Shown here piece by piece: positions 1,399-11,611 of a DNA stretch of 64,000 nucleotides (its first letter is position 1; each line of letters begins with the position of its first letter). The notes beneath the pieces are model-generated. The model searched no databases. It had not been told where the DNA came from and saw nothing but the letters and a program-made list of their open reading frames with translations. This DNA is from Herbinix sp. (GTDB taxonomy: Bacteria > Bacillota > Clostridia > Lachnospirales > Lachnospiraceae), in the NCBI GenBank assembly GCA_029238935.1, contig JAQZBN010000005.1:1-64000 (forward strand), written 5' to 3'. The position numbers and the translations under genes are program-made.

Positions 1399-1732
1399 AA
1401 TCGTACGCTCCTTCTCAAACATTAATTTTCATTACACAGATATAATAACGCTGCTTTCTGCTTTTGACTGTAGGCATGTTGCAAGAAGTTTATATTTGAA
1501 ACTGTACGATGTGCCGGATATGACAAAAGGGAGCTTCTCAACACACCTTTGTGCTAAATAAATCCCCTTATATACGCCTATTGGTAAAATGAAAGAAGTT
1601 TATCTTTTTATTTTATTACTTAACACAATGTATGATAAATCTATTAAATAATATCTTTCTTGTTTTAGTTAAAATATGTTATTATTAAGTACCAGTTATA
1701 ATCGGTTAATACCATATCATAGGAGTAATAAT
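1399..1732. other. Divergent intergenic region at the island's left edge
   Basis: This stretch separates the leftward acidic winged-helix gene from the rightward GHKL gene and must hold both promoters. A TATAAT at 1697-1702 is a possible -10 box for the rightward gene, but I see no convincing -35 box. A GGAG at 1722-1725 serves the ATG at 1733. Open frames in it are short and antisense; I see no RNA gene. Confidence 0.4.
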
Positions 1733-2650
1733 ATGCCTTATATAGTAAATGAAGACGATTTCAAGAGCTTTGAAACTGCTAATAGCCTAATAAATAATCT
1801 AAAATCTGAAACCTCTATAGCCTTTAATCTTTCTAAATTTTCATCACCAACACAATCTTCCATATCTTTGTTTTTATATACATCCTGCTATCTATTTCTT
1901 ATGTGTAGTAATAAAATAGTACTTCTAAACGCATCCGATTATTTTCTTCAAATAATGGGTCGCTATCAATATTTTCAAAAAATATTTGATATAGATATGT
2001 CTACCATTACAATAATAAAGAAGGAAGCTACTGTAACGAAACCAGTATCTTATCTATCTCACTCCTACATTTTTTATGCTAGCAGTATACCAGAACATAG
2101 TAGCTTATGTATGACAATTAGGTCAATCTTAAACAATATGCTAATGACTACGCCCAAAGTTTCTAGTCAAATATTTGATGTAATCAAGGAACTATTAGGA
2201 AACTCGCTTGAGCATAGTGTTATAGACCAAACAATAGATTTATCAACTTGTGGCAAGTACATAACATTATTTAATGTATATAAGTCAAATAAATCTGTAG
2301 ATCAATCTCTATTAGATATACAGATAATTGATGCAGGAATTGGAATACGCTATAATATTGAAAATACATATGGTACATTATCCTCTAAAGACTTCATATA
2401 TATTAGTGAAGCAATTAAACCAGGTGTTACCTCTCGAAAAAGCAACGAGGGAGGAAGCGGTTTATCAAGTACAATTGATATCTTTACAAACATTCCTTCC
2501 GATATGAAATACCTCGAAATCATATCAGGTTATGGTAGATATATGTACCAATACCCAAATGCTCTTAAAAATTCTGCTAATTTGTCAGATATTATATATA
2601 AAATCTCTGGGACATATATAAATATAAGATTAGTTATACAGGATAAATAA
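1733..2650 (+). CDS. GHKL-type ATPase (histidine kinase/anti-sigma-like), island gene
   Basis: A 305-residue protein starting at ATG 1733, chosen because ATAGGAG lies 7 bases upstream; an earlier ATG at 1676 has no ribosome binding site. The C-terminal half carries the Bergerat ATP-binding fold: an N-box (ELLGNSLEHS, near residue 151), a G1 box (IIDAGIGIR, near 199) and a G2-like box (GGSGLSS, near 239). The N-terminal 130 residues are unassigned. No transmembrane segment, phospho-accepting HisKA helix or receiver domain is visible, so it resembles an anti-sigma-type kinase more than a classical sensor kinase. The next gene encodes a STAS-like domain, the usual partner of such ATPases. Its substrate is inferred from this context only. 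Confidence 0.75.
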   Translation: MPYIVNEDDFKSFETANSLINNLKSETSIAFNLSKFSSPTQSSISLFLYTSCYLFLMCSNKIVLLNASDYFLQIMGRYQYFQKIFDIDMSTITIIKKEATVTKPVSYLSHSYIFYASSIPEHSSLCMTIRSILNNMLMTTPKVSSQIFDVIKELLGNSLEHSVIDQTIDLSTCGKYITLFNVYKSNKSVDQSLLDIQIIDAGIGIRYNIENTYGTLSSKDFIYISEAIKPGVTSRKSNEGGSGLSSTIDIFTNIPSDMKYLEIISGYGRYMYQYPNALKNSANLSDIIYKISGTYINIRLVIQDK

Positions 2651-2668
2651 ATTTTATTTAATCTTCTA

Positions 2669-2713
2669 TTGACATTCATTGGAATCTGTTGTATCTTAAA
2701 GGTACAACAGATT
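2669..2713 (+). promoter_or_regulatory. Promoter with overlapping 11-bp palindromic operator
   Basis: TTGACA (2669-2674) and TATCTT (2692-2697) are spaced by exactly 17 bases. A perfect inverted repeat, AATCTGTTGTA (2683-2693) and TACAACAGATT (2703-2713) with a 9-base spacer, covers the -10 box and the likely start site. It lies between the GHKL gene and the STAS/winged-helix gene, so the downstream genes appear to have their own repressible promoter. The winged helix of the first gene it drives is the obvious candidate binder, which is inference. Confidence 0.75.
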
Positions 2714-2738
2714 TTATTTATCCTTTGGAGGTAATCTT

Positions 2739-3401
2739 ATGCAACAAATAAACTTAAATATATGGGATATCGTTACCCAAAATAATATACCATGTTTCGA
2801 TCACTTTTTACTTTTACGCCCTAATGCTATTAAAACCAAGAGTATTATTAAGAATTATATATTTACCAAACTCACAGACGATCCGCATATCATATTGAAA
2901 TACGATTTTTCGTTAATTGATTCCATGGATATTTCGTTTGCAGATGAAATTATATTTTTACTAAAACTTGATTTGCAATTATATGATAAATATCAGTTTA
3001 TTATTGTTTTAGTATCTTCTGGAATAAATTTCACCAATGAATTACTCCCGACTATTACAGCGGCACAAATGAATCGTGAAAAAATAGAAACTGCAAAGTT
3101 ACTTAATAAAAAAAATCTATACTTACCTGTTTTAATATATGAACATAATTCACTATCTGTATTAGGAGAATTCGAAAAAAAACTTCAAGATATATATGCC
3201 AATTCTTTTACAAACAAAGCAATGACAACAAGAGAGTTGAGTGAGTCTTTAAACATTTCTTTAACGAACGCCGGAACTCAAGCAAATAATTTGCTTAATC
3301 TCGGACTTATTTTTAAAAAATCAGAAAATGGACCCAACGGGAAATTTAATACCTATTTCAAAATAGATTCAACTCATATCACTCAATCGGAGGTTAAATA
3401 A
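2739..3401 (+). CDS. STAS-like (DUF4325-type) domain fused to winged helix
   Basis: A 220-residue protein; ATG 2739 follows GGAGG (2727-2731). Residues about 50-90 (IILKYDFSLIDSMDISFADEIIF) have the strand-loop-helix pattern of STAS-like DUF4325 domains, including the Asp-Ser-x-x-x-SFADE turn. Residues about 160-215 (MTTRELSESLNISLTNAGTQANNLLNLGLI) form a winged helix. STAS domains typically partner GHKL kinases in SpoIIAA/SpoIIAB-like switches, and the GHKL gene lies just upstream. I infer that this protein links such a switch to transcription, possibly of its own operon through the palindrome before it. Its stop codon overlaps the next start (TAATG), indicating translational coupling. Confidence 0.72.
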   Translation: MQQINLNIWDIVTQNNIPCFDHFLLLRPNAIKTKSIIKNYIFTKLTDDPHIILKYDFSLIDSMDISFADEIIFLLKLDLQLYDKYQFIIVLVSSGINFTNELLPTITAAQMNREKIETAKLLNKKNLYLPVLIYEHNSLSVLGEFEKKLQDIYANSFTNKAMTTRELSESLNISLTNAGTQANNLLNLGLIFKKSENGPNGKFNTYFKIDSTHITQSEVK

Positions 3402-3865
3402 TGGATATCAAAACAACATTTTATAATACAACAGACGTAATTCTATATGAGGATACGGTAAACTCAATAAAAGAATTATTTATTACCTATGACAGGTATA
3501 TATCATATACATTTGGACACTTGAGAAAATATTTAGATAATTTTTTGCTGTTAAATGGATGGTCAGAAAAGATTAAAATTGATGAAGGTTCAAACATGAC
3601 AGTACCTGCTATAAAAAATAAAGTAGGTTTAAGTTTCCAGACCGGAAATGCAGCTAGATTTTATTCTGATATGCTTAAATTTCAAACACTTTATATTCAA
3701 AATAGGCTAGATAGTCTCATATACATAGTGCCTCAAAATAACTTAGCTACTCATATCAACACAAATACAGCTAATTATGAAAGAGTAGTTAAAGAACTTG
3801 ATATTTTTAGAAATATTATAAATATGCCTATAGTAATTATTGGCATAACTAACAAGGAGGATTAA
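3401..3865 (+). CDS. BglII/BstYI-like restriction endonuclease fold, probably catalytically altered
   Basis: A 154-residue protein starting in a TAATG overlap with the STAS gene. The segment KNKVGLSFQTGN (residues 72-83), followed by DMLKFQTLY, LDSLIYIVPQ and NYERVVKEL, matches the pattern I know for the BglII/BstYI restriction endonuclease family: a hydrophobic strand, a Gly-Asn turn, 'LLKFQ', 'IVP' and 'ERVVREL'. In active members the strand reads roughly Asp...Val-Glu-Val-Gln. Here the Glu position is Ser and the expected upstream Asp position is occupied by Val-Pro-Ala, although the Gln is kept. The protein may therefore bind DNA without cutting, or use other residues. The assignment is by eye; an unrelated PD-(D/E)XK-like protein is the alternative. 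Confidence 0.6.
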   Translation: MDIKTTFYNTTDVILYEDTVNSIKELFITYDRYISYTFGHLRKYLDNFLLLNGWSEKIKIDEGSNMTVPAIKNKVGLSFQTGNAARFYSDMLKFQTLYIQNRLDSLIYIVPQNNLATHINTNTANYERVVKELDIFRNIINMPIVIIGITNKED

Positions 3866-3869
3866 TTAT

Positions 3870-5168
3870 ATGGAATACGGTGCTTCATATCCAAAAAGAA
3901 TAGAATTTCTATCAAGATTAATTGATAGTAAAAGCAGTAAAATAGGCGAACATTTTTTAGTTTTCCAAAATACACCCAAATATTATTCAATTTACAATGT
4001 ACCTATCTATTTACCAAAATATCGTTTAGCAAACGGTAGAACAAAAGCTGATCAGTTGCAGCATTTAGCTTTAAATCCTGAATTACCTAGTGATTTCTTT
4101 ATGAATGATAAAGAAAATATTGAAGCAATTAAAGTTCAGCATGAATTATTAAAAAAGAAAGTTGAAAAAGCGCCTAACGATAGGAATCTTTTAAAGTTTT
4201 TTAAAGAGAATAGCTTTGATGAACCTCTTATTCTAGATGCTAAGGGATTTGTTATAAATGGTAATAGGAGATTATGCGCGATCCGAGAATTATATTATTC
4301 AGACCCCACCTCATTTAGCCATTTCACTCATTTAAAAGCTATTATCTTACCTGAATGTACAGAAGAAGATTTAGATGTATTAGAGGCTCAATTGCAGATT
4401 ATACCGGATATCAAAGAAGACTATTCCTGGACAAATACTGCTTGTAAATATCGTGATATGCAAGTTAATTATGGTTATAGTGATAAAGCACTTGCTGATT
4501 TATATCAAGTGAAAGAAACAGAAATGAGGGCTATGCTATCAAAACTTAATCTTGGTGAAAGATACCTTGATAAATATAATCTATCTCATGAATATTCTAA
4601 AATAGAAGATGATAAATTTGCATTTGATCAAATTTTTACATCCTCTGGTAAGTTAAAACAAACAGAGCCAAACTATAGTTTTTTAAAAGAGGCTTTAGAA
4701 AATCTATCATTTATAGCTATAAATAATAAAGATTCTCTTGATGTTGGTCGTATTTATGCAGCTGTAGCAGATATTTATTCGTACCATGAGAAAATATTTG
4801 ATGAAATATCAAACGAAATTAATCTTGATAACGAGATGATTCCTACCGAGGATAGTCTTGATGACTTATTTGGATTTGATACAAGTTCTGTAGATAATAC
4901 AGTTCTATTAAATGCTATAAAAAATTCTGAAAACGATACTACAATTGCTGAAATACTCAAGAATGTAATAAATGAAGAAAGAGCTGCAAACCACTCAAAT
5001 AATCTTAAAAATGCATTCTTAAAACATCTACAACGAGCGCAAAAAGAATTGGAAGAAGCTTGCTCATGCATTAAAAACACTACTAATTCAACTACTACTA
5101 ACTCAGATCAATATATTAATCAAATTGATGAATATATTTTAGAATTAAAGGAGTTGTTATCATTATGA
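3870..5168 (+). CDS. ParB/Srx-like domain protein of the island
   Basis: A 432-residue protein; ATG 3870 follows AAGGAGG and lies 4 bases after the previous stop. Residues about 112-150 (DEPLILDAKGFVINGNRRLCAIREL) show the ParB/sulfiredoxin-fold signature: a 'leave-blank' strand, then G-N-R-R followed by a helix. This fold in ParB binds CTP and in other families cuts or modifies DNA. A helical middle (residues 180-230) could contain a DNA-binding helix-turn-helix; the last 100 residues are acidic and coiled-coil-like. The stop overlaps the helicase start (ATGA). It is not near a parA gene, so chromosome partitioning is unlikely. I infer a DNA-tracking or DNA-recognition role in the island system. 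Confidence 0.7.
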   Translation: MEYGASYPKRIEFLSRLIDSKSSKIGEHFLVFQNTPKYYSIYNVPIYLPKYRLANGRTKADQLQHLALNPELPSDFFMNDKENIEAIKVQHELLKKKVEKAPNDRNLLKFFKENSFDEPLILDAKGFVINGNRRLCAIRELYYSDPTSFSHFTHLKAIILPECTEEDLDVLEAQLQIIPDIKEDYSWTNTACKYRDMQVNYGYSDKALADLYQVKETEMRAMLSKLNLGERYLDKYNLSHEYSKIEDDKFAFDQIFTSSGKLKQTEPNYSFLKEALENLSFIAINNKDSLDVGRIYAAVADIYSYHEKIFDEISNEINLDNEMIPTEDSLDDLFGFDTSSVDNTVLLNAIKNSENDTTIAEILKNVINEERAANHSNNLKNAFLKHLQRAQKELEEACSCIKNTTNSTTTNSDQYINQIDEYILELKELLSL

Positions 5169-6937
5169 TCACTATTGACTACAATATTCAATCGTATAAC
5201 GCTATATTATCATCATCTGACAATGATAATAGTTGGATAAGTATCATAAATATTTGTTTTGAAGAGGCTAAAGAAACCATAAAAACTTCAATACTTTCAC
5301 TGGAAATTCCTTGGTGGTCTTTTTTAAATATTAAAAATGATATCTATTTTATTACAAAATCCAACTCTGTTTCCATTAATTTAACAGAACAAGCAAAACA
5401 ATTGTTATTGTTATCCCGAAATGAAATAATTAACTTGAATTCACCTACGTTAACTTATACGGAGTCAGATATAAACGAGAAGTTAAACAAATCCGGATTT
5501 ATACGTATCCTAAAACCTTTCCAGTTTAATAATTTGACAAATTTAATTCGGTTTCCATCGGGTGCAACCTTTTCGGTTCCTGGAGCAGGAAAAACTACTG
5601 AAGCATTAGCTTTCTATAGTTTTTTTAAAAATCCTAGATCAAAATTATTAGTAGTGCTTCCTAAAAATGCTTTTATAGCATGGGAAGAACAAATACCTGA
5701 ATGCTTTTCTTATAACCCAACCACTGTTCGTTTAACAGGGGGGTACGATAATATTCGTAATATATTATATTCTGAGCCTGAAATACTCCTAATAACATAT
5801 CAACAACTTATTAATGTTTACGAAATAGTTGGCAGCTATCTATCAAAATTTGATTCTTTTATTTTTGTTGATGAAAGCCATAGAATTAAGAAAGGAGTAA
5901 ATGGTAAAGCTGCTTCTGCTATTTTAAAACTTTCAGTTGTCCCCAAACATAAGCTAGTAATGTCAGGCACTCCTATGCCTCAAGATACAACAGACTTAAT
6001 TCCCCAGTTTAATTTTCTCTATCCCGGAATTAGAGTAACGGAAACAAATATAATTGAAAATATCACTAAGATATATGTTAGAACTACTAAACAGGATTTA
6101 GGTCTACCTCTTCCTCATTTTATTCAAACACCAATAAAAATGAGTTCTACACAACAATACTTATATGATATTGTAACCGATGATGGAAAGCGCTCTGTAG
6201 AAGCCTATCTAAGGTCTAGAGACAAAAATATTCTTCGTTCCATAAAGAAGAGTTGTATGCTTATGATTCAATTAATATCTAACCCAGCTTTGTTAACAAA
6301 TAAATTACCTAACGAAACCCTTAAAAATATTTTATCTTTAGGTGAAAGCCCTAAGTTAAATTATGTATGCAAAAAAGCACATTCATTAGCAAAAGAAAAA
6401 ACAAAAGTACTTATTTGGTCTAATTTTGTTGAAAATGTTGAAATAATCGCAAATAGATTACAAGACCTAAATGCTGTATATATTCATGGTGGTGTACCAT
6501 CCGGATCTGTAAATGATGTTAATACTCGTGAATATAAAATCAAGAAATTTCTTGATGATGATAACTGTTTTGTAATGGTCGCTAACCCCGCCGCTGCATG
6601 TGAAGGTATTAGCTTACATTCAAAGTGCCATTATGCAATTTATGTAGACCGAACATTCAATGCAGCTCACTATCTACAATCATTAGATAGAATCCATCGC
6701 CTTGGGTCAACCTCGGAAGTCACAATTGAAGTTTTATCTACTAATCAAACTATCGATGATACTGTAGAAAATCGACTATCACAAAAAGCTCAGAACATGG
6801 CAAATGTATTAAATGATCCTTCTATTATACGTGAGTATGAATACTCCGATGAAGACAATACAGAAGATGACGATGTATTAGGTATGCAAGAAGATGATAT
6901 AGAATACATTCTTTCACAAGTATGGGGGGTTAGTTAA
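5165..6937 (+). CDS. SNF2/superfamily 2 DNA helicase-like ATPase
   Basis: A 590-residue protein starting in an ATGA overlap with the ParB-like gene. Helicase motifs appear in order: motif I VPGAGKTTEA (near residue 138), motif II VDESH (near 236), motif III SGTP (near 266), motif V-like ANPAAACEGISL and motif VI QSLDRIHRLG (near 508). The DESH box and the Q-x-x-x-R-I-H-R-L-G motif are typical of SNF2 proteins, which translocate on double-stranded DNA. The N-terminal 110 residues are unassigned and the C-terminus is acidic. In restriction and defence systems such ATPases remodel or scan invading DNA. Its stop overlaps the start of the DUF3883 gene (TAATG). Confidence 0.88.
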   Translation: MITIDYNIQSYNAILSSSDNDNSWISIINICFEEAKETIKTSILSLEIPWWSFLNIKNDIYFITKSNSVSINLTEQAKQLLLLSRNEIINLNSPTLTYTESDINEKLNKSGFIRILKPFQFNNLTNLIRFPSGATFSVPGAGKTTEALAFYSFFKNPRSKLLVVLPKNAFIAWEEQIPECFSYNPTTVRLTGGYDNIRNILYSEPEILLITYQQLINVYEIVGSYLSKFDSFIFVDESHRIKKGVNGKAASAILKLSVVPKHKLVMSGTPMPQDTTDLIPQFNFLYPGIRVTETNIIENITKIYVRTTKQDLGLPLPHFIQTPIKMSSTQQYLYDIVTDDGKRSVEAYLRSRDKNILRSIKKSCMLMIQLISNPALLTNKLPNETLKNILSLGESPKLNYVCKKAHSLAKEKTKVLIWSNFVENVEIIANRLQDLNAVYIHGGVPSGSVNDVNTREYKIKKFLDDDNCFVMVANPAAACEGISLHSKCHYAIYVDRTFNAAHYLQSLDRIHRLGSTSEVTIEVLSTNQTIDDTVENRLSQKAQNMANVLNDPSIIREYEYSDEDNTEDDDVLGMQEDDIEYILSQVWGVS

Positions 6938-7788
6938 TGTATTACTCTGTAGGTATTTTATATTCCGTATCTAGCTTTTTAGAATTGATAAAAAAGGTTG
7001 AAATCATTGATAGTGATTTTATAAAAACCTTCAATCAGTTTAATGTAGCTAATGCATCATCAGTGCTAGAAGCATCAATTAATTACAACTGGGTTTCTAT
7101 AAATTCAGAAAACAAACTTCGCGTAACTACAAAAGGAGATGAACTATTACAGCTAAATAGTGACAATAAACGTTTACGTACTCAACTTATGCAAATGATT
7201 ATTCAAGATAACCCAATTTGGGCAAAAAACACTCATTTAGGTCGTAATGAAATTATTCCTTTCTTAAAACCCAATATTTTGCAGTGTTTTCGGGAAGCTA
7301 ATCTATTAGATACTTATTCAACTGAAGTTATTCAATGGTGGGATAACATCTCATATTTTACAAGAAATAATAACGATATCTATTTAAGTAAACTAGGTAG
7401 ACAAGCAGAAGAATTAAGTATAAAATTTGAAACCAAAAGAACAGGTGTACTTCCAAAATGGATATCAATTGATAGCAATTTGACAGGATATGATTTATTG
7501 TCTATTGTAGATATTTCTAATCCTAAACTATTATCAATTGAGGTAAAAGGAATTTATTCTACTTTATGCTCTTCCTTTTATTTGACAAATAATGAATGGG
7601 AAGTCGCAATGAATTCTGATAATTATATTTTTCATATATGGGATATTAAAGGTTCTGATTGTAGCCTTTCTATACTATTACCCGATGATTTAACCCCTCT
7701 CATTCCATCTAATACAGAGTATTCTACATGGGAAAAAATTATAGTAACCCCACCCAAATCATTATTAGAAATGCGGAAGGCTAATTAG
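6937..7788 (+). CDS. DUF3883 nuclease-like protein with N-terminal helix-turn-helix regions
   Basis: A 283-residue protein whose ATG overlaps the helicase stop. The C-terminal part, from GYDLLSIVD (near residue 184) through SIEVKG (near 201) to FYLTNNEWEVA and the final Y-x-x-H-I-W strand, matches DUF3883, a PD-(D/E)XK nuclease-fold domain frequent in defence helicase operons. The catalytic pattern (Asp of GYD, then Glu-x-Lys in EVK) is intact. Residues 30-160 contain two winged-helix-like segments. It is the best candidate for the cutting subunit of the island, by motif and context. Its 3' end overlaps the convergent methyltransferase by 4 bases inside a palindrome. Confidence 0.72.
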   Translation: MYYSVGILYSVSSFLELIKKVEIIDSDFIKTFNQFNVANASSVLEASINYNWVSINSENKLRVTTKGDELLQLNSDNKRLRTQLMQMIIQDNPIWAKNTHLGRNEIIPFLKPNILQCFREANLLDTYSTEVIQWWDNISYFTRNNNDIYLSKLGRQAEELSIKFETKRTGVLPKWISIDSNLTGYDLLSIVDISNPKLLSIEVKGIYSTLCSSFYLTNNEWEVAMNSDNYIFHIWDIKGSDCSLSILLPDDLTPLIPSNTEYSTWEKIIVTPPKSLLEMRKAN

Positions 7789-7796
7789 CTTTCCGC
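7773..7796. terminator. Bidirectional hairpin spanning two convergent stop codons
   Basis: GCGGAAGGCTAA followed directly by TTAGCTTTCCGC is a 24-base palindrome with one G-U pair. It contains the stop codons of the DUF3883 gene (plus) and the methyltransferase gene (minus). TTTCTCAATTTT follows on the plus strand, with a weaker T-run on the other. It probably terminates both transcripts within the coding ends. Confidence 0.65.
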
Positions 7797-9104
7797 TTTC
7801 TCAATTTTCTTTATGTCTTTCTCTGATATAGCTATATCGCTCATGATTATTAATTCAGGGATTTCTTTAATAAATCTATTACTCTTGAAGGCTTGCTCAG
7901 ATGCTTTAAAGGTTTCATATCCATACGGATATTTCTTAACTAATTCCTTTATTTTAGTTGCCTCATATTTATTATATTGAATTTTAACACTTAAATTATA
8001 CTTAGACATTGGAGCTTTTGATATAATTTCATTAACATATTTAACAATTTGATCCTTATTTTCTTCTTGCTTTAATAAGAAATCACACATTAATTCTGCA
8101 TAGTAACCGCCTTCATTTTTGTCATAATACTCATAACTTGAAAGAATACCGACACATTCAGGATACTTCTCACTTACCTTCTTTAACATTAATTTTGCAT
8201 ATTTAATACAACGTAATTTTGTTGTCATAATTTTATAAACTTCCAATAATCTCTCACGTTCTTCATCACTCTTTTTTATATCATTCCATTCTGAATCTAC
8301 ATATAGCTTTGTAGCACTATTAAACAAGTCTTTATATTCACTATTTATTTCGACTCCAAAATATCTCCTACCAAGTTTTTCAGATACTCTTAATGTAACA
8401 CCGGATCCTGCAAAGGGATCAAAAACTAAATCATTAGGATTTGAGGACAATTGAATCATTCGATGTGCAAGCCTTGCAGGAAATGGACAAGCATGTTGCA
8501 ATTTTTCTTCATCTCCATAGCTCCCCCAGCTTCCTTGCGCCGGGATAGTAAAATCCCATATATTTGAAGGTATAATACCTAATCTACTGTATCTCTCCGG
8601 ATAGTTTTTCCACCATTCCTTTGGGTTTAAAACTGTTATCTGATTTTCATTATAAGTATATTCTTTAGGGTTTTTACTAAAAAACAAAATATATTCAAAA
8701 ACATTTCTTATTTGCCCCTTTCGAGACCATGGTAAAGTCTTTCCTTTATTCCATATAATAGTGTCTTTATGATACCAGCCTATATTCTCTAATAACTTCG
8801 CTAATTCGTCTGGCAATCTTATTAATCTATCATTTCTTTTGATAGTGTCAATAATCAAATATAAGGATGCGGTTTCTTTTGATATATTGTAGACTCCGGT
8901 AAATATTTTTTTTAATGAATCTATATATTCTTCAAAAGTTTGTCCGTATCCGGTTTGTTGAGAATTACCTTCATAATCTTTAGCATCCCAATATGGTGGC
9001 GATGTAATTACCAGATCAACAAACGGATTATAATCCTTATATGTATCAATTAATGCCTCTGCATTCATCAATTTATATATATTAAATTCATTAAAGTCAT
9101 TCAT
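7785..9104 (-). CDS. N4-cytosine-type DNA methyltransferase with long C-terminal extension
   Basis: A 439-residue protein starting at ATG 9104 behind GGAGG. The catalytic motif TSPPYW (residues about 34-39) precedes the S-adenosylmethionine-binding motif DPFAGSGVTL (near residue 230), so the motif order is that of beta-class amino-methyltransferases. SPPY is characteristic of N4-methylcytosine enzymes such as those paired with BamHI- and BglII-type nucleases. About 170 residues after residue 265 are extra compared with minimal enzymes; I do not recognise them. It converges on the helicase/nuclease operon with a 4-base overlap, so it likely protects host DNA from that system. A TGGTATAAT extended -10 box lies upstream on the minus strand. 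Confidence 0.88.
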   Translation of the reverse strand: MNDFNEFNIYKLMNAEALIDTYKDYNPFVDLVITSPPYWDAKDYEGNSQQTGYGQTFEEYIDSLKKIFTGVYNISKETASLYLIIDTIKRNDRLIRLPDELAKLLENIGWYHKDTIIWNKGKTLPWSRKGQIRNVFEYILFFSKNPKEYTYNENQITVLNPKEWWKNYPERYSRLGIIPSNIWDFTIPAQGSWGSYGDEEKLQHACPFPARLAHRMIQLSSNPNDLVFDPFAGSGVTLRVSEKLGRRYFGVEINSEYKDLFNSATKLYVDSEWNDIKKSDEERERLLEVYKIMTTKLRCIKYAKLMLKKVSEKYPECVGILSSYEYYDKNEGGYYAELMCDFLLKQEENKDQIVKYVNEIISKAPMSKYNLSVKIQYNKYEATKIKELVKKYPYGYETFKASEQAFKSNRFIKEIPELIIMSDIAISEKDIKKIEKAES

Positions 9105-9275
9105 AAATAAACCTCCAGCACATTATACACACCATAAAACTCTAAGGTAATTATACCATTCTATCACAAAAAGATCCAGAGAAATAATTCTAAAATTCAT
9201 TATATGTTATGCAAATGTATCAATTTCTTTATACATCAATAATTACAATAATTATTCTACATTCTTTTATTATAT

Positions 9276-9944
9276 CTAAAAATGAAATATACTTTTATTT
9301 AATCTTTGAAGCTTAATATCTAAATCATTTTTGAATATAACACGTTTTTCAACAATTTTTAATCCTACAGCTACACATTCATTTAGTAGCTCCCTATAGT
9401 TGCTTTTTTCTGTAACGTTAACATTTTTCAATCTGCTATTCAGATAAATTATCCATAACTCCACTTTATATCCTGTTTCTAAAAGCTTTTTAATTGCAAT
9501 AAGTTGATTCTGTCCTCTTTCTGCACTCGTGCTTGGATAATCTGTTTGACTTCTGTTAGACAACACAGTTTTAACTTCAATAATACATTTATTATCAATG
9601 ACAAAATCAGTTTTGTATGAATCACAGTATTTTTCTTTTAAAATTATCCCTCTCTTGGATTTTATCAACTCCTTATATACTAAGTCATTTGCATATGAAA
9701 GATTTAATAATGATTTAGGTCTGTCCAATAAAGCCAAAAGCGTGTATTTCGTTCTTAATCCAGCTTGATGATTTTTAGTCAATAATACCCTTTTTCCTTT
9801 TAAATTAATTATCTTCTCAAGCTTAGCCGAACTAGCCACATGACAAAGCTCTTTTTTTCCATCTATCATTACATTACACATAAATCTATGCTTTGTTTCA
9901 TATAAAAATATACCCTGTACGCAATTCTCTTTTATTAAATCCAT
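9276..9944 (-). CDS. SfsA-like DNA/RNA nuclease-fold protein
   Basis: A 222-residue protein if it starts at ATG 9944, which has a weak GGGGA site; an in-frame ATG at 9959 lacks one. N-terminal residues (GIFLYETKHRFMCNVMIDG, then HVASS...KGKRVLLTKN) follow the SfsA oligonucleotide-binding domain pattern. The centre has the PD-(D/E)XK signature TDFVIDNKCIIEVKTV, and then PSTSAERGQNQLIAIKKLL and a C-terminal YRELLNECVAVGLKIV as in SfsA. SfsA proteins bind or cut nucleic acid; the original 'sugar fermentation stimulation' name is historical. It lies upstream of, and in the same direction as, the methyltransferase with 171 bases between. Whether it belongs to the defence module is inferred only from position. 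Confidence 0.7.
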   Translation of the reverse strand: MDLIKENCVQGIFLYETKHRFMCNVMIDGKKELCHVASSAKLEKIINLKGKRVLLTKNHQAGLRTKYTLLALLDRPKSLLNLSYANDLVYKELIKSKRGIILKEKYCDSYKTDFVIDNKCIIEVKTVLSNRSQTDYPSTSAERGQNQLIAIKKLLETGYKVELWIIYLNSRLKNVNVTEKSNYRELLNECVAVGLKIVEKRVIFKNDLDIKLQRLNKSIFHF

Positions 9945-10088
9945 CAATGATATCCCCATTATAATTATTATTTATCTCAATAACAAAACCTCGAATAAAT
10001 ACCTTAACACATAAAGAGCTATTTCACAATTTATTTCGAGTAATTCTAGTCCTCACAATATTCAACTATATCAACTTTTCCTTAAAAC

Positions 10089-10186: not shown

Positions 10187-10230
10187 GGTGGGCTTCAGAC
10201 ACACTCGCATCCAAAGCCCTCACTTTAACT
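10187..10230 (-). terminator. Hairpin at the 3' end of the 460-aa gene
   Basis: On the minus strand AAAGTG-A-GGGCTT pairs with AAGCCC-CAC-TTT around an 18-base loop, starting right at the stop codon and followed by AGTTTAGTTC. It is a plausible weak terminator for the leftward gene. Confidence 0.4.
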
Positions 10231-11611
10231 ACCGCAGATCACCATTTATATATGTTGATATGATATCTTTATCCATTTCTAAACTACTGTTTCGACTGGT
10301 AACTGCGGTAACAATTTTCGCTTCCTCTAGACTAAAAGTATATGTATCCGATTCTATTTCCCGGTAAGTACTGTCGATAATAATGTTATCGTCAATCAAA
10401 TCCTCTGTTTCAGCTACTTTCCTCTTTGCTTTATTAACTCTGTCCTCTTCTCGTCTTATTGCTTCAATATATTTTATTTCTTGATCAAAAGAAAAGAGTA
10501 CTCCCTTTTTCTTATGTCTATCGTATTGCATTATAAAATACCTATCCTCAAGCTCCTGTAATGACTTCTCATTTATTATCGGATCATTCGATGTGCGAGC
10601 CAAGAACCTTTCAAGGCTTATCACTGCATAACCCTTTTTAAGCTCCGTTTGTTTCTTATCTTTTACTTGTTCTTTTACTTTTACTCTTGCTGTTTTTCCC
10701 AGCCTACCATCATCGTCACATACTAGAAGCCAAGACAGTGCCAATTGTCTAAGTAGTTCTTCTCTCTTATATCCGTTGAGCCTTGCAACCTCATCAAACT
10801 GGTCAGGCAAAAAGAAGTAGAAATCTCTCTTTATGGAATCCTCATTTCCTGCTGCATACAGTTTTTTAGCTTCCAATATAAGGCTTCTGTATACCTCACC
10901 TATATCGGGCTTATCGTCGATAGTTTTATATGTAACTCTAGGCAAGCTTGTAATCTTATCCCAAATAGCATGATACAATTTATCGCAGTCAATGTGATTG
11001 TTCCCTTGAAACTCAGTTAATCCCTTTAGCACTTTGCTACCTGCAAAGTTGTTGCTACTAAAATCTGACATTCTAAACTCAAATGGATCACAGCATACAC
11101 CGTCTTCATGCTTTAATACCAGATACAACTTTGAACGCTTAGATTTACTCTCAACCGTTATACCTGCATAAATTCCTGCTTTCTTATTATCCCAATTGTA
11201 TATCTTCATCAGTCCATCCGTTAAATCAACCTTAGTCTCTGGAACCTCTTCATGCAGCTTCTGTTGGATTTCCTCATCTAATTCAAGCTCATCAATGGCA
11301 TCCATAAAATCTTTTACATTATTTATTTGCCCTCCCGGAAATTCACTGTTGGCTAGTATGGTAGGAAGATGCCTATTCACTTTCTTTGCATATTCCTCCG
11401 ATAGTAAATCTTTAAATTTTTCTATCTTTTCTTCAAAAGTTAAATTATTCATGTTAGGTGTTACTATCTCATTCTTTTCTGCCTCATTACTTCCTCCGAT
11501 CTTCACCTCCTTCGCTGTAGGTTCGTCAGCCATATTACCATCTGTTACCTTCCTCTCACAAAATTCTTCCCTTGCTAATGCTTCATTATTAGTGCTGTAA
11601 TTGTTTTCCAT
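10229..11611 (-). CDS. Orphan 460-aa hypothetical protein
   Basis: A 460-residue soluble protein; ATG 11611 has a good GGAGG site 9 bases upstream. The N-terminal 70 residues are polar, Glu/Asn-rich and probably disordered. The middle contains FYFFLPDQFDEVARLNGYKREELLRQL, a helical segment that could be a small DNA-binding or interaction domain, and LGKTARVKVKEQVKDKK, a basic stretch. The C-terminus is charged with a likely coiled coil (IRREEDRVNKAKRKVAE). No transmembrane segment, Walker box or nuclease motif is visible and I recognise no family. It lies between the restriction-like genes and core chromosome genes, so it may be part of the same accessory element. Confidence 0.6.
   Translation of the reverse strand: MENNYSTNNEALAREEFCERKVTDGNMADEPTAKEVKIGGSNEAEKNEIVTPNMNNLTFEEKIEKFKDLLSEEYAKKVNRHLPTILANSEFPGGQINNVKDFMDAIDELELDEEIQQKLHEEVPETKVDLTDGLMKIYNWDNKKAGIYAGITVESKSKRSKLYLVLKHEDGVCCDPFEFRMSDFSSNNFAGSKVLKGLTEFQGNNHIDCDKLYHAIWDKITSLPRVTYKTIDDKPDIGEVYRSLILEAKKLYAAGNEDSIKRDFYFFLPDQFDEVARLNGYKREELLRQLALSWLLVCDDDGRLGKTARVKVKEQVKDKKQTELKKGYAVISLERFLARTSNDPIINEKSLQELEDRYFIMQYDRHKKKGVLFSFDQEIKYIEAIRREEDRVNKAKRKVAETEDLIDDNIIIDSTYREIESDTYTFSLEEAKIVTAVTSRNSSLEMDKDIISTYINGDLR

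Follow-up and report, generated by a model that had tools for sequence, protein, structure and literature searches.

A 64,000-nucleotide window from Herbinix sp. (positions 1 to 64,000 of contig JAQZBN010000005.1) carries, between positions 3401 and 9104, a cassette of genes for a BglII-like protein, a ParB-like protein, an SNF2-type ATPase, a DUF3883 protein and, on the opposite strand, a DNA methyltransferase. It is preceded by a GHKL/STAS gene pair, a candidate controller. The four same-strand genes keep their order in most of the relatives collected and have diverged together, the BglII-like protein lacks the catalytic glutamate of its family and the DUF3883 protein retains an intact nuclease motif. 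We give about even chances to a reading of the cassette as a split restriction-modification system, in which the BglII-like protein would be the reader, the ParB-like protein the adaptor, the SNF2 protein the motor and the DUF3883 protein the cutter, with a separate methyltransferase. The genes concerned are:

3401..3865, plus strand: BglII/BamHI-fold protein, predicted recognition subunit (PF09195, E 1.9e-14)
3870..5168, plus strand: ParB-like protein, with a ParB/Srx domain carrying GNRR, a helix-turn-helix (HTH) and long C-terminal helices (predicted fold)
5165..6937, plus strand: SNF2-type ATPase/helicase (PF00176, 9.4e-17)
6937..7788, plus strand: DUF3883/NOV_C (NO VEIN C-terminal) protein, predicted PD-(D/E)xK nuclease (PF13020, 4.7e-9)
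7785..9104, minus strand: amino (N6/N4) DNA methyltransferase with a TSPPYW motif, placed among the site-specific enzymes by its profile match (PF01555, 1.4e-48)

Conservation and co-divergence of the cassette genes

The window helicase gave no match when used as a single-protein query of genome contigs, and matches were obtained with a helicase alignment as query. The alignment scan, with one genome per species, returned at least 498 stretches encoding a helicase relative, which are helicase relatives and not proven cassettes; the best 80 were kept, a selection that biases the set to near relatives. Adjacent BglII-like, ParB-like, SNF2 and DUF3883 genes on one strand, with both adjacency and strand required, were present in 64 of the 80 loci. 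A six-frame profile search of the same loci detected the ParB-like protein in 78, the DUF3883 protein in 79 and the BglII-like protein in 64; in the two loci without a ParB-like match (L031 and L079) the helicase lies near a contig end. The core order was seen in loci from Bacillus, Paenibacillus, Tissierella, Mesorhizobium, Luteimonas, Winogradskyella and Chitinophaga, and also in a Planctomycetota, a Spirochaetae, a Verrucomicrobiaceae and a Nitrospinota genome. Because the order recurs in such unrelated bacteria, the island arrangement is, judged by sequence comparison, more than chance, and a gene order unique to this genome, which the preliminary description had named as fatal to its proposal, is excluded by these loci. 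The same description had recognized restriction-type logic in the combination of helicase, nuclease and modification genes, and this view holds: they belong to one conserved cassette, with a methyltransferase no more than 4.5 kb from the helicase in 73 of the 80 loci (63 of the amino type and 10 of the C5 type). Six of the remaining seven have no methyltransferase and one has no helicase open frame.

Evolutionary distances were compared in the 44 of the 80 loci that combine the four core genes with an amino-type methyltransferase and whose proteins are full-length. The pairwise distances of the BglII-like, ParB-like, SNF2 and DUF3883 proteins correlated with r of 0.87-0.95, whereas those of the methyltransferase gave r of 0.51-0.57 with each of the four. 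None of 1,000 permutations reached the observed correlation in the four pairs tested. By these correlations and the methyltransferase counts, the restriction-side genes are a unit, whereas the enzyme that protects the host is swapped more readily.

The ParB-like protein was found in 2 of 295 genomes of the window's own taxonomic order, and its profile matched in 11 of 398 of the phylum, some of these matches being weak or of other architecture. As a tblastn query the ParB-like protein returned five plasmids and one prophage, and the five annotated loci among these show a gene of varying kind followed by the ParB-like gene, the helicase and then DUF3883 or an unnamed gene. In L010 this unnamed gene gives a match to NOV_C, in L008 one insertion sequence splits the helicase from DUF3883, and the Paracoccus locus, which carries no annotation, has the order methyltransferase, BglII-like, ParB-like, SNF2, DUF3883. 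The BglII-like protein alone as query of viral contigs gave no match. The locations on plasmids and a prophage, and the positions of L015 beside a relaxase and of L026 beside an integrase, would also fit a cassette for maintenance of or conflict between mobile elements (addiction, exclusion or control of DNA uptake) and not for anti-phage defence. Restriction systems are commonly mobile too, however, and one report places controllers of the kind that the window's GHKL/STAS pair resembles mainly upstream of immune operons, in 348 of 443 cases (PMC13373217), so that we regard this alternative as distinctly improbable.

Predicted roles of the BglII-like, DUF3883, ParB-like and SNF2 proteins

The predicted model of the BglII-like protein (mean predicted local distance difference test score, pLDDT, 90.9) matched 16 structures at E <0.001, all of them BstYI, BglII, OkrAI or BamHI, which places it by fold in the BglII/BamHI structural family. 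In sequence alignments the window residues Ser78, Gln80 and Asn83 align with E111, E113 and N116 of BamHI and Thr121-Asn122 with D154-R155; in BamHI, N116 and D154-R155 contact bases. Cassette copies numbered 67, comprising 54 open frames and 10 six-frame copies from the 80 loci together with L005, L096 and the window; L003 and L092 have the window sequence and were not counted again. The position of the catalytic glutamate was non-acidic in all 67 (Cys in 38, Gln in 23, His in 4, Gly in 1 and Ser in 1), and positions 69 and 70, the site of the other acid in BglII-type enzymes, were acidic in none. Residues Q80, N83 and N122 were invariant, as were D90 and K93. The controls were 12 members of the BglII family from the same phylum that lie outside cassettes (no ParB-like match in their loci of about 2-3.6 kb); in the glutamate column E occurs in 10 of the first 11 and D in the other, and the twelfth (L128) has D. 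Since these outside relatives keep an acid there, the loss of the glutamate is specific to the cassette. The BglII-like protein listed in the preliminary description is thus probably a recognition subunit and not the cutter.

We therefore file the cassette as a variant of restriction-modification and not as Type II, its partner endonuclease having no intact active site. In a PADLOC scan of 52 BglII-like members, 30 and 22 fall under two REase_II models, and annotation would for this reason name the protein a Type II enzyme. The known enzymes of the BglII/BamHI fold act at sites centred on GATC, and by analogy our guess is that the recognized site contains this core.

The cutting activity can be attributed with more reason to the DUF3883 protein, which keeps E158, D186, E202, K204 and E220, with a D...E-x-K site, in 60 of 60 aligned rows. 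An earlier study describes DUF3883 as a novel restriction endonuclease domain that is joined to an SNF2 helicase in a different restriction-modification operon (PMC3710099), the closest published statement among the sources searched. Because this site is intact and the glutamate of the BglII-like protein is lost, the DUF3883 protein is favoured as the likely nuclease of the system and the BglII-like protein as its predicted reader. In the SNF2 protein the Walker A motif SVPGAGKT and the DE[AS]H motif were invariant or nearly so in seven aligned copies.

The window ParB-like protein had no convincing Pfam match. Among 56 members scanned, five matched ddrB-ParB and one HTH_ParB, and PADLOC gave a few weak matches to unrelated models. 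Its predicted model (mean pLDDT 93.2) retrieved from the PDB by Foldseek a list led by Noc, ParB, KorB and Spo0J, with probabilities near 1. In 56 aligned rows GNRR and E172 were invariant and Q176 nearly so; the protein thus combines the ParB fold, the GxRR motif and the HTH that characterize the ParB/Srx superfamily. Residues E172 and Q176 may match the ENxQ motif of ParB CTPases. The fold match and the conservation of GNRR, E172 and Q176 make a nucleotide-gated clamp plausible.

From these parts we infer a function in defence, complex formation and the following order of events. The methyltransferase would mark host DNA, and the BglII/BamHI-fold protein would bind the methyltransferase's site, probably GATC-containing, when this is unmodified. 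The DNA would then be passed to the ParB-like protein acting as a nucleotide-gated clamp or adaptor, and the SNF2 ATPase would travel along the duplex, bringing the DUF3883 nuclease, which would cut.

Several observations weigh against this reading. Position 61, at BamHI-type spacing, is acidic in 40 of the 67 cassette copies, so that a consistent loss is seen for one acid of the two only, and the invariant D90 and K93 may serve catalysis in another way. Controls L118 and L119 stand two columns out of register in the 67-copy alignment, with their EWETGN motif shifted. The DUF3883 protein had no match to any solved structure by sequence search, and the structure match of the ParB-like protein to its family has an E value of only about 1e-3, though it is clear by rank and probability. 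The BglII-like gene was missing in 16 of the 80 loci by six-frame search, some of them at contig ends; in L015, L020, L035 and L046 (amino type) and in L056 (C5 type), however, a methyltransferase stands directly before the ParB-like gene, and recognition in these would need another explanation. Still other loci have in that place a protein of 281-319 residues (L006-L009 and L086), with invariant Cys/His (PCRHxGAPP, IFHN..CG...R.CPK) and no Pfam match, or a BanI/DpnII-like protein, in L010 (Streptococcus phage Javan191), with a homologue in L093. In these last two, considered as possible further dead enzymes, the putative E-x-K region reads DVS or DIT where E-x-K was expected, and a structure search gave TAL-repeat matches only.

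The acid at position 61 would suit an ordinary Type II pair, composed of the methyltransferase and an active, non-canonical BglII-like enzyme, with the ParB-like, SNF2 and DUF3883 proteins as a second, independent defence layer. Such a pair would also agree with the adjoining of the methyltransferase and BglII-like genes in many loci and with the strong selection expressed in the invariant Q80, N83, D90 and K93. It is hard to reconcile with the 67 non-acidic copies set against 12 outside relatives with an acid, and with the BglII-like distances, which correlate at 0.87-0.92 with those of the ParB-like, SNF2 and DUF3883 proteins and at 0.57 with those of the methyltransferase; we hold it to be unlikely. 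The loci without a BglII-like gene that keep the methyltransferase, ParB-like, SNF2 and DUF3883 genes (L015, L020, L035, L046 and L056), and the C5 methyltransferase directly upstream of the ParB-like gene in G177 and G481, speak instead for another proposal, with recognition by the methyltransferase or by the ParB-like protein; the BglII-like protein would then have an accessory part, for instance as a regulator that binds DNA or as a protector of host sites. As the BglII-like gene is present in 64 of the 80 loci and co-diverges with the rest, and as the methyltransferase is the loosest partner, this proposal too has a small share of our belief.

The variant loci favour exchangeable readers and argue that the BglII-like protein is not essential everywhere. 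In a fuller form of the split system, which we advance tentatively and with more doubt than the general scheme, a dead Type II enzyme would be a methylation-sensitive reader that loads the ParB-like clamp onto invading DNA and thereby licenses SNF2/DUF3883 cutting at a distance, its place being open to other readers (BglII-like, BanI/DpnII-like or the 281-residue Cys-rich protein), and in some bacteria a CapK/CapS-like switch would hold the cutter inactive until DNA is damaged. In two further loci, L098 and L099 (G629 and G297), the gene after the ParB-like one encodes a longer SNF2-type protein whose additional N-terminal region is phospholipase-D-like by eye; they possibly represent a sister architecture without DUF3883.

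Should the split system prove correct, a common bacterial cassette parts reading from cutting, with a restriction-enzyme fold as pure reader, and couples this reader to a ParB-type protein, whose family is known above all for its part in chromosome segregation. One could then test directly whether ParB-like proteins serve immunity as clamps on DNA, and there would be an explanation for BglII-like genes annotated as restriction enzymes.

The putative controller pair and neighbouring genes

The other features of the island are:

1733..2650, plus strand: CapK/VapK-like STAS-GHKL kinase (motifs; the frame is open from 1676, with the start at 1733, which AGGAG precedes, preferred)
2739..3401, plus strand: CapS-like STAS-winged-helix repressor (motif; weak winged-helix match)
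9276..9959, minus strand: divergent SfsA-like protein, a neighbour and not core (PF03749, 5.3e-10)
2683..2713: palindrome, candidate operator or first-gene terminator (15-nt arms, 93% complementary)
7773..7796: palindrome at convergent stop codons, likely two-way terminator (sequence)

All eight proteins named in the preliminary description are in the open-reading-frame list at the places claimed, the GHKL and STAS assignments being weak by profile alone. The HATPase_c match of the GHKL gene (0.026) falls below the Pfam cut-off, and its assignment is based on an N-box (ELLGNSLEHS), a G1 box (DAGIGI) and a G2 box (GGSGLS) aligned with the Tissierella copy. For 2739-3401 the STAS-like half had no Pfam STAS match and the winged-helix half had weak Pfam matches only, and a weak match to 9z71_A at E 0.097. 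A DISF.DE motif is common to the window and Tissierella STAS proteins, with Ser66 in DISFADE as candidate phospho-acceptor. A homologue in G107 (L105:976-2211) has a GHKL domain and two STAS-like stretches, the second with SSFADE, in a single chain, which fits a partnership of kinase and STAS protein.

The pair resembles the CapK/CapS or VapK/VapS controllers in having a GHKL kinase followed by a STAS-winged-helix protein (the STAS half by motif only), a conserved Ser in the STAS motif and an immune-type operon downstream. The GHKL/STAS pair of the preliminary description thus has a published likeness, the CapK/CapS (or VapK) controllers of PMC13373217. In that paper CapK is reported to be activated by single-stranded DNA, and CapS to leave the DNA on phosphorylation; for 88 of 443 capK-capS pairs it lists restriction-modification systems upstream, and the passages covered do not list the operon of the island downstream. 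The likeness is incomplete: the window kinase, like VapK, has no N-terminal HTH, the region before its STAS-like part being too short (by eye and Pfam), the operon differs, and the TTAA half-site operator of CapS is absent from the gap between the two controller genes. Across 1401-5300 this operator has a single wide match, which falls within coding sequence at 5005. The 31-bp palindrome at 2683-2713 overlaps the -10 element of a promoter-like site (TTGACA-17-TATCTT, 2669-2697) and is also terminator-like, the numbers of promoter-like and terminator-like matches being near the shuffled expectation.

By profiles the controller pair was found in one of the 80 relatives, Tissierella sp. P1 (L017). 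As a core part of the system it was rejected, because the window and Tissierella profiles match these two loci only; they were built from two sequences and can miss distant forms. As an optional add-on in the window and this relative, the pair would repress the restriction genes until single-stranded DNA signals damage, and the methyltransferase would meanwhile be expressed from its own transcript. That would add a restriction-type operon to the set possibly governed by a kinase-repressor pair that senses DNA damage.

Three same-strand stop/start overlaps, at 3401, 5165-5168 and 6937, were confirmed, as was the palindrome shared by the convergent pair: the genes for the DUF3883 protein and the methyltransferase share 4 bases inside GCGGAAGGCTAA/TTAGCTTTCCGC, in which 11 of 12 pairs match by eye. 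It looks like a two-way terminator and was rejected as a special feature. The methyltransferase and the SfsA-like gene had both been described as converging on the plus-strand genes; of the two only the methyltransferase faces these genes directly, the SfsA-like gene being on its strand and farther upstream. Nor is the SfsA-like gene a core part of the system: the source genome has two sfsA-like genes, with 55 bits for the island copy (family cut-off 126) and 206 bits for that at G000:C31:111669-112328, and no match to the divergent island copy was found among the open reading frames of the 80 relatives fetched. The island is richer in A+T than the remainder of the window: the G+C content is about 0.29-0.31 across 2-9 kb and about 0.34-0.43 in steps beyond 12 kb of the window, in which a tRNA search found none. 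The minus-strand proteins flanking the island (10229-11611 and 571-1422) had no convincing Pfam, PADLOC or NCBIfam match.

Comparison with known systems

The statement that the island matches no named system was borne out: PADLOC, Pfam and NCBIfam scans of the window proteins named no such system, and PADLOC gave only generic helicase, methyltransferase or weak restriction-enzyme models. Searches for the operon in an open-access library gave no description, subscription papers and preprints being outside this scope, where a description may exist. A set of BREX-related systems was considered and set aside, the part of that paper available not describing the cassette (PMC12839542). The parts of the cassette are ordinary, and their arrangement, that of a widespread and apparently unnamed system, is new to the sources searched.

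Zorya ZorD, DISARM DrmD, the BREX helicases and Dpd DpdE are alike in SNF2-type helicase similarity only, and a PADLOC scan of ten window proteins found no hallmark partners of Zorya, DISARM, BREX, Dnd or Dpd. Type II enzymes cut without hydrolysis of nucleoside triphosphates (NTP), and in this the cassette may differ, its unit including an SNF2 ATPase. With BglII, BstYI, BamHI and OkrAI the cassette protein shares fold and sequence profile; it differs in the absence of the catalytic glutamate, in its length of 154 residues and in being always part of a multi-gene cassette in the set examined.

The nearest working model is CglI/NgoAVII, which likewise combines a methyltransferase, a separate recognition/nuclease protein and a separate helicase-like ATPase (PMC5737866, PMC4267653). 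A Pfam scan of the window proteins reported no domain of the CglI/NgoAVII R protein, R.CglI itself not having been compared. The ParB-like protein, the DUF3883 protein and the reader of BglII/BamHI fold are features of the cassette, whereas R.CglI is itself the endonuclease; the long-distance, NTP-dependent cutting of CglI/NgoAVII is the logic that would be expected of the cassette too.

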